Assembly: GCA_028694915.1 (NCBI GenBank)
Contig: JAQVJY010000004.1
Coordinates: 1 to 64,000 of the forward strand
DNA: 64,000 bases
Direction: 5' to 3'
Source of the DNA: Paludibacteraceae bacterium
GTDB lineage: Bacteria > Bacteroidota > Bacteroidia > Bacteroidales > Paludibacteraceae
Part shown: positions 23,197 through 28,100 of the stretch, one piece after another
Layout: every line of letters starts with the position of its first letter
Position numbering within the stretch: position 1 is the first letter of the stretch
Position numbers and translations under genes: made by a program
Notes under the pieces: model-generated
Databases searched by the model: none
What the model was told of the DNA's origin: nothing
The model's input: only the letters and a program-made list of their open reading frames with translations

Positions 23197-23460
23197 TTAT
23201 TTTTTCTCCACTTGTTGAGAGGTTTGTTTTGCGTTTGCCATAGCCGCAGTACGTATGGTTTTAAGTTCTTGATTTGTGTTATACTGTTCAACTTTACCAC
23301 CAAGTGTAAACAAGTCGATTAGTGAACCAATACCAAACAAACCACCTGTAAAAATCCAAATAATTCCAGTTCCAATTTTACCCAAATAAAAACGATGAAT
23401 TCCTAACCATCCAAAAATACTTATAAGCCATAATAAATAGGCAACTCCTTTTGATTTCAT
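23197..23460 (-). CDS. TM2 domain protein
   Basis: An 87-residue membrane protein with the TM2 layout: two hydrophobic helices (about residues 6-24 and 32-55) joined by GIHRFYLGKIGTG, followed by a GSLIDLFTL turn and a polar tail. I used the ATG at 23460 (MKSKGVAYLL); the longer frame begins at a non-ATG codon. TM2 proteins are common in bacteria and their function is mostly unknown. It is transcribed away from the rod-RNA region at 23548-23724, and its upstream leader would include that sequence if transcription starts beyond it. Confidence 0.85.
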   Translation of the reverse strand: MKSKGVAYLLWLISIFGWLGIHRFYLGKIGTGIIWIFTGGLFGIGSLIDLFTLGGKVEQYNTNQELKTIRTAAMANAKQTSQQVEKK

Positions 23461-23547
23461 AATATTGTTTAATTTAATTCTACTCACTTAAATATTCGGC
23501 AGAGTAGCTAATCCGTTAAATAGTTCCTTACATAATATACAGACATA

Positions 23548-23724
23548 AAGAAAGCGTGGAACTTTGCCTGTCTATTTGTTTCTTGTGGTCCTAGGAATAC
23601 CATTACACCAAATATAAAGTAAAGCCCACGCTATAACACGTGAGCATCAGACTTTACATTCTTGGTGTTTTGTTTGAAATTTCCTAGGTTTCAAGAAACA
23701 AGAAGTAAGCTAACGCTTTTTTTT
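23548..23724 (+). ncRNA. Rod-shaped structured RNA candidate (6S-like architecture)
   Basis: A series of nested perfect helices: AAAGCGT (23551-23557) with ACGCTTT (23713-23719); TTGTTTCTTG (23576-23585) with CAAGAAACAA (23692-23701); CCTAGGAA (23590-23597) with TTCCTAGG (23681-23688); ACACCAA (23605-23611) with TTGGTGT (23662-23668); GTAAAG (23619-23624) with CTTTAC (23652-23657); and a terminal CACG/CGTG. The largest internal loop has 7 and 12 bases. On the plus strand the outer helix runs into eight T, like a terminator. GAACTTTG at 23559-23566 is one base off TAnnTTTG and could start a shorter 150-base form. No coding frame fits. It could instead be the leader of the TM2 gene on the minus strand, or a small palindromic element. 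Confidence 0.6.
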
Positions 23725-23825
23725 ATTTAAAATGTCTGCACCAACTGTGCTGTTTTATTTCATAGGCAAATTGATTATATCAAGTTGATAGATTTTACAA
23801 ATATAAATATTTTTTCACAACAAAC

Positions 23826-23862
23826 AAAAAAACGCATAAAAACAAATTTAATGCGTTTTTCT
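23826..23862 (-). terminator. Terminator of the fumarase gene
   Basis: AAAAACGCAT (23828-23837) pairs with ATGCGTTTTT (23851-23860); loop of 13; T-rich on either strand, sited 17 bases past the fumarase stop. Confidence 0.75.
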
Positions 23863-23878: not shown

Positions 23879-25513
23879 TTATTTACGAGCGCAAACTGGC
23901 TGTAATTGTTTGAAGAAATCATTTCCTTTATCATCCACAAGGATGAATGCAGGAAAATCAACCACCTCAATTTTCCAAATAGCTTCCATACCCAACTCTG
24001 GATATTCAACACATTCTATCGATTTAATGTTGTTTTGAGCCAAAATAGCTGCTGGCCCACCAATAGAACCAAGGTAAAAACCGCCATGTTTTTTACAAGC
24101 ATCTGTTACTTGTTGACTGCGATTACCTTTTGCCAGCATAATCATGCTTCCACCATGACTTTGGAATAAATCCACATACGAATCCATACGACCAGCCGTA
24201 GTTGGTCCCATAGAACCACATGCCATACCGGCAGGCGTTTTAGCAGGACCAGCATAATAAATCGGATGATCTTTCAAATACTGTGGCATAGCTTCACCAC
24301 GATCCAAACGTTCTTTGATTTTGGCATGAGCTATATCACGTCCAACAATAATGGTTCCGTTCAACGATAAACGTGTAGAAACTGGATATTTGGTCAATTC
24401 TTTTAAAATATCAGCCATTGGTTGATTCAAATTCACTTTTACTGCATCGCCTTCACCTTCGTTTCTCAATTCTTCAGGAATTAAGCTTGCTGGATTATCG
24501 TCCATTTTTTCAATCCAAATACCATCTTTATTGATTTTACATTTGATATTACGGTCGGCCGAGCAACTCACACCCATGCCCACTGGACAGCTAGCACCGT
24601 GACGAGGTAAACGTACAATACGAATATCGTGTGCCAAATATTTGCCACCAAATTGAGCACCTAAGCCAATTTTATAGGACTCTTCTAACACCTGTTTTTC
24701 TAATTCAATATCGCGGAAAGCACGACCATATTCATTACCAGTGGTTGGCAATTCGTCATAATAATGCGTAGAAGCTAATTTTACAGTCAATAGATTTTTT
24801 TCGGCTGACGTACCTCCAATACAAAAGGCAATATGATATGGTGGACAAGCTGCCGTTCCCAATGTCTTAATTTTTTCAATCAAGAAAGGAACTAATGTAT
24901 CTGGATTTAATAACGCTTTAGTTTCTTGGTACAAATACGTCTTATTGGCAGAGCCACCACCTTTAGTGACACACAAAAATTTGTACTCCATACCTTCAGT
25001 AGCCTCAATATCAATTTGGGCAGGCAAATTACATTTGGTATTCACCTCATCGTACATATTGAGTGGTGCATTTTGCGAATAGCGCAAATTTTCTTCGGTG
25101 TAAGTTTTAAAAACACCTAACGATAAAGCTTCCTCGTCGCAATAACCCGTCCACACGTGCTGTCCTTTTTCGCCATGAATAATAGCGGTACCAGTATCTT
25201 GGCACAATGGTAATTTACCCTTAACTGACACGTCTGCATTACGCAACATCGTTAAAGCCACGTATTTATCATTATCACTTGCTTCCGGATCTTTTAAAAT
25301 TTTAGCGACTTGCTCATTGTGCGAACGACGTAATAAGAAGGAAACATCGCGAAAAGCAGCATTAGCCATTTGAGTCAATCCTTCTTTTTGAATTTTCAAA
25401 ATAGGTTGACCTTCAAATTCACTCACCGAGACATAGTCTTTGGTTAATAAATAATACTCTGTTTTGTCCTCACCTAGAGGGAACGGATGTTGATAATGAA
25501 ATTCTGTTGCCAT
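23879..25513 (-). CDS. Fumarate hydratase, class I (4Fe-4S)
   Basis: Interconverts fumarate and malate. The 544-residue length is that of class I, single-chain fumarases, with the alpha part in residues 1-330 and the beta part after. Cysteines that would hold the 4Fe-4S cluster are visible at [18 protein letters not shown] and SCPVGMG; the beta part has [20 protein letters not shown] and PEAIWKIEV-like ending. Class I enzymes are oxygen-sensitive, which suits an anaerobe running fumarate-linked metabolism. It stands alone, divergent from an acyl-CoA ligase gene across 308 bases, with a terminator downstream. Confidence 0.95.
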
Positions 25514-27725: not shown

Positions 27726-28100
27726 ATGAAAAAATTACATGTTTTTATCGCTGGTATTATTGGCTTATTCTTATTAACAGGATGTGCAGGTTCTAATCTA
27801 TCACAACACGTTAATAACGATGTGACGCAAACAAGCGTCGTTTTATCTCAAAACAATTATCGCATTGTTGGTGAAACATCAGGTACTTCAACTTCAACCT
27901 ACATTTTGGGTATTGGTGGTTTATCTAAAACTGCGTTAACTAGCAATTCACGCGCTGACATGTATGCTAATGCGCGCCTAAAAGATGGCCAAGCTATCAT
28001 TAATGTATCAACAACGGTATCATATAAAGTAATTGCTGGCCCTATTTATATGCAACGTATAGCAACTACTACTGGCTATATTATCGAGTTTGTGAAATAA
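27726..28100 (+). CDS. DUF6567 family lipoprotein
   Basis: A 124-residue lipoprotein: MKKLHVFIAGIIGLFLLTGC with lipobox LTGC at the Cys20, then a small body containing NNYRIVGETSG, YILGIGGLSKTAL, RADMYANARLKDGQAIIN and a C-terminal GPIYMQRIATTTGYIIEF strand. I recognise this order as the DUF6567/TRL-like group of Bacteroidota lipoproteins. Function unknown; likely periplasmic. Upstream, TATATTTA at 27676-27683 is one base from the -7 consensus. A long hairpin terminator, shared with the convergent trhA gene, follows. Confidence 0.82.
   Translation: MKKLHVFIAGIIGLFLLTGCAGSNLSQHVNNDVTQTSVVLSQNNYRIVGETSGTSTSTYILGIGGLSKTALTSNSRADMYANARLKDGQAIINVSTTVSYKVIAGPIYMQRIATTTGYIIEFVK

Follow-up and report, generated by a model that had tools for sequence, protein, structure and literature searches.

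We describe a structured RNA element that probably acts in cis as a control region within the 5′ leader of an mRNA and that belongs to a family outside Rfam. It lies on the minus strand of a 64,000-nt stretch of DNA from a Paludibacteraceae bacterium (the whole of which we call the window). Its structure, covariation, promoter position, gene linkage and mini-ORF conservation are supported by comparison of homologous sequences. The same comparison indicates a multicopy family that extends through much of the class Bacteroidia, with each copy standing before a different gene, often one for a predicted surface or secreted protein. That the leader works specifically as an attenuation switch is a more tentative proposal, which we develop from two sets of mutually exclusive pairings.

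Results

Position, strand and extent of the element

The element is flanked by a fumarase gene (23879-25513, minus strand) and by a gene on the same strand that encodes a TM2-domain membrane protein (23197-23460, with its ATG at 23460; PF05154, E 4.3e-18). A preliminary description of the window had proposed five helices without a coding frame at 23548-23724, read from the plus strand and ending in a run of T. The helices are present, no gene overlaps them, and the stretch folds beyond chance on either strand: the predicted energy is -55.3 kcal/mol for plus (z -5.1 versus dinucleotide shuffles) and -60.5 kcal/mol for minus (z -6.8), with 0 of 200 shuffles as favorable in each case. The choice of strand has to be reversed. 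A covariance model made from homologues scores the window copy at 162.8 bits (E 1.5e-28) on the minus strand versus 24.7 bits on the plus strand; the sense strand is minus, and we rejected a plus-strand transcript on these scores. The T-run of the plus strand does exist, but it is complementary to an A-run, the partner of the U-run in the minus-strand RNA. Likewise, the rod lies where it had been placed, but the full element is larger. The covariance-model match delimits a core structured RNA of 180 nt (23543-23722, minus), and together with the promoter, mini-ORF, outer stem and downstream pairing partner the element reaches from about 23828 down to 23522. The leader extends on to the gene start at 23460.

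Directly after the fumarase gene, and adjoining the predicted -33 box, there is an inverted repeat (AAAAACGCATAAAA/TTTAATGCGTTTTT, 23828-23860), probably the fumarase terminator.

The core folds into a branched rod with two kissing hairpins

Across 96 distinct aligned copies, 92.7% of the cells of the proposed structure are paired, and 32 of 54 pairs show two-sided changes. When the partners were slid by 1-3 columns as a control, pairing fell to 37-50%. Helices were also assessed by a swap test, which compares a strand's own partner with the partner strands of other copies (66 non-redundant copies unless stated otherwise; the swap and slide statistics ignore kinship among the sequences).

The outer stem P0 pairs CAGACAT (23738-23732) with ATGTCTG (23546-23540; z -5.4), and its arms read TACGCACAT/ATGTGCGTA in many homologues. 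P1 joins AAAGCGT (23719-23713) to ACGCTTT (23557-23551), with 93.5% of cells paired and a swap z of -2.5, or -6.0 in a larger set. P2, at about 23702-23692/23585-23576 (CTTGTTTCTTG/CAAGAAACAA), is part of the predicted fold and gives z -10.1. Towards the apex, P4 (ACACCAA, 23668-23662, with TTGGTGT, 23611-23605) and P5 (GTAAAG, 23657-23652, with CTTTAC, 23624-23619) are paired in 93-94% of cells and share a swap z of -24.7. The rod is capped by the apical hairpin P6 (GCTCACG, 23645-23639, with CGTGGGC, 23630-23624), in which 98% of cells are paired (z -8.0, and -10.8 in a second swap test).

Two further hairpins are found between P2 and P4. Ha (23674-23694) has the arms TTGAAA and TTTCAA around CCTAGGAAA, with 94.3% of cells paired, two-sided changes at 5 of 5 pairs and z -4.6; Hb (23586-23602) has the arms TGGT and ACCA around ATTCCTAGG, with 96.3% of cells paired and z -8.6. 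A helix that we call P3 (23590-23688) pairs CCTAGGAA in the Ha loop (23688-23681) with TTCCTAGG in the Hb loop (23597-23590); its main helix is paired in 97.0% of cells and shows two-sided changes at 5 of 5 pairs (z -18.3). Because the P3 strands are the loops of two conserved hairpins, this covariation points to an intramolecular kissing contact. RNAalifold returned Ha and Hb from the first alignment and the P3 rod from 100 sequences. Both results are supported, and they are compatible as kissing loops; since Ha, Hb and P3 are all supported, we rejected a simple nested rod as the sole structure.

Alternative pairings at the 3′ end

ALT (23554-23631, minus) joins the 3′ arm of P6 (GCGTGGG, 23631-23625) to the strand immediately before the terminal U-run (TTCCACGC, 23561-23554, followed by the T-rich run 23553-23547); this partner is GTCCGCGC in most copies. 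Of the ALT cells, 93.3% are paired versus 40-53% after sliding, and the swap test over 102 copies gives z -9.6. In L201, a distant homologue, the whole stem is exchanged, its two strands reading GGGGTGTTCC and AGGAACACCC. ALT has nucleotides in common with P6 and P1 and excludes them both, and all three covary. The RNA thus shows the layout of an attenuator, namely mutually exclusive stems of which one is followed by a U-run.

PT (23522-23563, minus) pairs AGTTCC (23563-23558) with GGAACT (23527-23522), 3′ of the U-run, so that partners about 30 nt apart meet across it. The swap test gave z -10.4 for 102 copies and -3.6 for the 19 copies from outside Bacteroidales alone. Its 5′ strand, AGTTCC in the window, is TTTGTCC in most copies and AGCACC, GTACC or others elsewhere. 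PT fits readthrough, yet it could equally be a purely structural pseudoknot.

PL is a local hairpin (AAGC-GTTA-GCTT) formed from the P1 5′ arm (region 23719-23713, minus), which excludes P1. It can form in 94% of copies, compared with 45% of shuffled sequences; as its covariation is weak (z -2.1), we propose PL from the conservation of a foldable hairpin only. The 3′ end is U-rich (at least 6 T within 8 nt) in 97% of copies. Pairing with the A-run in P1 also explains this U-run, which therefore does not require a terminator role. Together, ALT and PT suggest two exclusive folds, one of them ending in a terminator-like stem and U-run.

Predicted promoter and a start-stop mini-ORF

Upstream of the core we predict a promoter (23798-23828, minus) composed of a -33 TTTG (23828-23825), a 19-nt spacer and the -7 box TATATTTG (23805-23798), which would place the transcription start at about 23792-23789. 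Of 96 copies, 70 have a Bacteroidota-type TAnnTTTG box upstream, against 8.8 expected. The interval from element to gene contains one in 4 of the 96 (4.1 expected), giving no sign of a second promoter there.

The promoter is followed by a start-stop mini-ORF, ATG AAA TAA (23755-23763, minus), inside the conserved motif TTTGCCTATGAAATAA. Bacteroidales copies carry the motif GCCTATG after the promoter, with a conserved ORF of 1-6 codons, typically ATG-NNN-TAA. Among 55 motif-bearing copies, an in-frame stop is reached by codon 2 in 67% (17% when shuffled) and by codon 6 in 98% (42% when shuffled). The products vary widely (MK-stop, ME-stop, MNK-stop, MKHRV-stop). These homologue statistics suggest that the mini-ORF is translated. 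The motif was not found in the Flavobacterium-like copies.

Right after the mini-ORF, sequence and visual comparison of copies revealed a small hairpin, PU (GCAC/GTGC, 23738-23750, minus), that competes with P0. Closer to the gene, the sequence contains a potential hairpin before the start codon (23480-23507, minus; CTACTC, 23507-23502, with GAGTAG, 23485-23480), of which GAGTAG recurs in relatives. Eight loci of one genome (G026) share additional conserved sequence downstream of PT and ahead of the start codon, for example CGGAGNAANNCGAAAAGCCG, then GTGAGTAG or GTGGAGG, which is perhaps a ribosome-site module. In five other copies, belonging to several families, a second small hairpin with AAGG in its loop (for example GTCCGTATAAGGAACGGACGTA) is seen near the start codon.

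Distribution of the family

The source genome holds two copies; the second (G000:C38:32681-32861) is diverged and precedes another gene. BLAST found matches in 14 of the 61 nearest genomes, often several per genome. Of 150 genomes in the source genome's family, 125 had the element by a covariance model built from 24 copies, with at least 18 matches in some (copy numbers are lower bounds, as the large searches scored 9-18 candidates in each genome). Across Bacteroidales it was present in 117 of 295 genomes, representing 78 of 178 genera, and in a sample of the phylum in 24 of 248 genomes, mostly from other orders in the same class. A pattern for the apical part, searched over 84,980 named species, matched 95 stretches; among the matches listed, 80 of 80 were Bacteroidota by title, and the taxa include Alistipes, Dysgonomonas, Parabacteroides, Odoribacter, Tannerella and Muribaculaceae. 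Named isolates with the family are Dysgonomonas sp. 520 and 511, Alistipes muris DSM 112343 and Parabacteroides sp. 52.

Copies within one genome are mostly about 53% identical. G026 has two copies that are 97% identical and have different downstream genes. The apical pattern had no exact match among 2.9 million viral contigs, and one homologue gave no BLAST match in phages or plasmids; we rejected a plasmid, phage or viral-contig origin for want of such matches.

Genes downstream of the element

Of 101 copies, 96 have a 3′ neighbor in the same orientation, and for the 5′ neighbor the figure is 49 of 69; by inspection, some of the five 3′ exceptions also have a same-strand gene. The median distance from element to next gene is about 80 nt. 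Several Flavobacterium-like copies lack the mini-ORF and stand more than 200 nt from the gene. Four Flavobacterium-like copies precede TonB-receptor-like genes about 220 nt off.

Pfam matches of 84 downstream proteins spread over 33 families, with at most 5 members in any one, and we rejected a common downstream function on these counts. The families include LRR_5, SusC/TonB receptors, BACON, DUF6567, TM2, recombinases, DNA methylase and ECF sigma. By a simple heuristic, signal-peptide-like starts are found in 71 of 100 targets versus 128 of 401 other genes in the loci (P 1.7e-12); lipobox-like starts, scored in a similarly simple way, are found in 35 of 100 versus 44 of 401. One lipoprotein family keeps the element in Bacteroidaceae, Prevotellaceae, Alistipes and Limimorpha, its proteins being 35-45% identical across Bacteroidaceae, Prevotellaceae and Limimorpha.

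The window also encodes a small lipoprotein (27726-28100) that by eye resembles the element-following lipoprotein of another locus (L089). It has no element copy nearby, so that gain or loss of the leader within one gene family is open to study. Six copies elsewhere precede serine recombinases or small XRE-like regulators; as such neighbors are typical of integrative elements, the leader may also travel with mobile DNA.

Comparison with Rfam and the literature

At gathering score, Rfam 15 has no match at the window element or at 20 homologue loci, and homologue L097 gave no Rfam match up to E 1. Weak matches at relaxed threshold (for example MIR5998 and MicC) were far below gathering scores and were rejected. 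The genome contains no match to RF00013 (6S) or to RF01685 (6S-Flavo), the latter model being equally silent in controls. The single genome match to RF01693 (Bacteroidales-1; G000:C22:255456-255635, 88.3 bits) lies elsewhere than the element, which matches neither 6S nor Bacteroidales-1 even at a permissive threshold. Fremin and Bhatt 2021 (PMC8040213) describe candidate structured RNAs that include palindromic ones of Bacteroidetes near TonB and other genes. Our literature search found no published description of the family, the candidates of that study being compared by their descriptions only; fragments of the family may be among them, unnamed. The RNA family is apparently uncatalogued.

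The preliminary description had likened the element to 6S or Bacteroidales-1 RNA, and this likeness is not supported by the searches above. Nor is its open-promoter-mimic bubble, whose strands are the arms of Ha and Hb and are paired within themselves in 94-96% of copies. Its other suggestion, a structured RNA that may be new, is now strongly supported by covariation (32 pairs with two-sided changes among 96 copies) and by the silence of Rfam. It had also warned that identical dispersed copies would mark a repeat; since the second copy is diverged and precedes a different gene, and structure is maintained by compensatory changes, that objection does not apply.

Discussion

A central question about Bacteroidota, the dominant bacteria of the human gut, is how they regulate their numerous surface proteins. 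A leader RNA before unrelated envelope genes, absent from Rfam 15, would be an unrecognized layer of that control. The family is present in most sampled genomes of the source's family and in many genera of the order, in gut as well as environmental Bacteroidota.

We infer that the unit is transcribed as a whole, that termination and mini-ORF translation occur, and that the RNA switches, as well as the direction and signal of that switching. In the proposed mechanism, one promoter would transcribe mini-ORF, structured RNA and gene as a single unit, and the RNA would fold into the branched rod with its two hairpins kissing. The overlapping strands define two exclusive sets of pairings: A, with PL and ALT next to the U-run, and B, with P1 and P6 together with PT. 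In state A, the apical 3′ arm would leave P6 and form ALT before the U-run, giving a terminator-like stem; at the same time, the P1 5′ arm would fold into PL. In state B, P6 and P1 would form, ALT would be blocked and the polymerase would pass; PT, beyond the U-run, would act as a pseudoknot that locks this readthrough form. A tie to translation would arise in Bacteroidales if a ribosome at the start-stop mini-ORF opened PU and favored P0. Kissing loops, competing P6/ALT stems and a start-stop mini-ORF offer precise testable predictions. Against a leader switch, the targets have no obvious common pathway, which is unusual for a riboswitch, and several Flavobacterium-like copies have a distant gene and no mini-ORF. 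A broader version, which we consider somewhat unlikely, is a class-wide plug-in switch, built on the kissing-loop core and, in Bacteroidales, the start-stop mini-ORF. Through it, unrelated envelope genes, often for lipoproteins and surface adhesins, would answer to one RNA-sensed signal; this might be translation initiation status, a nucleotide alarmone or an ion. If true, Bacteroidota would possess a regulon defined by RNA, with up to 20 or more genes.

Two rival readings are less probable. The element could be a free-standing, trans-acting sRNA present as many paralogues, with neighbors that are incidental or reached by readthrough only; its own promoter, a U-run at the stem end (at least 6 T in 8 nt in 97% of copies) and the distance of more than 200 nt to the next gene in Flavobacterium-like genomes agree with this. 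However, a promoter between element and gene is no more frequent than chance (4 of 96 versus 4.1), PT pairs and covaries with sequence beyond the U-run, the next gene shares the element's strand in 96 of 101 copies, at a median of about 80 nt, and gene linkage is stable across families. We regard an sRNA as unlikely. The signal-peptide enrichment of the targets, the mini-ORF near the inferred start and the lack of a common pathway would also suit a leader that does not switch and serves the localization, stability or translation of mRNAs for envelope proteins, for example as a constant ribosome-loading or 5′-protecting structure. The conserved and mutually exclusive pairs P6/ALT and P1/PL point instead to two states, making a non-switching leader quite unlikely.

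Two others fare worse still in our estimate. Several copies per genome, the terminal inverted repeats formed by P0 and the two 97% identical G026 copies with different downstream genes could indicate a nonautonomous, MITE-like mobile palindrome that supplies promoter and terminator incidentally. Yet most copies within a genome are only about 53% identical with the structure kept by compensatory changes, their orientation towards the gene is fixed, the same gene association recurs across families, and neither the apical pattern in 2.9 million viral contigs nor one homologue in phages and plasmids found a match; we consider this reading very unlikely. The long rod with internal loops would also suit an RNA of 6S type, which binds RNA polymerase as a mimic of an open promoter, but this is extremely improbable: neither RF00013 nor RF01685 matches (the latter model being silent in controls too), Bacteroidales-1 lies elsewhere, many copies stand before many genes, and the supposed bubble consists of two kissing hairpins with covariation. 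A cis-acting leader remains our preferred explanation.

Among known systems, 6S and 6S-Flavo RNAs (RF00013, RF01685) are likewise rod-like, and 6S is of similar length at about 180 nt, whereas the new family is multicopy within a genome and linked to downstream genes, and 6S was not detected here. Bacteroidales-1 (RF01693) is also an RNA of about 180 nt in Bacteroidales, but it occupies a separate locus of this genome and its model has no match at the element. None of the candidates described in PMC8040213 matches in size and architecture, a distinction drawn from their descriptions. The purine riboswitch, as an example of loop-loop riboswitches, shares the loop-loop tertiary contact, the cis position and alternative pairing near a U-run; the present element differs in its fold, in having no Rfam match and no known ligand, and in targets without a common metabolic theme.

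Attenuators with leader peptides are exemplified by the trp leaders and the Bacteroides tetQ leader. The element resembles them in that a 5′ leader with a very short ORF, alternative stems and a U-run precedes the gene. Unlike them, its ORF is a start-stop without regulatory codons, and its structure is larger, is built around a kissing-loop core and recurs before unrelated genes.
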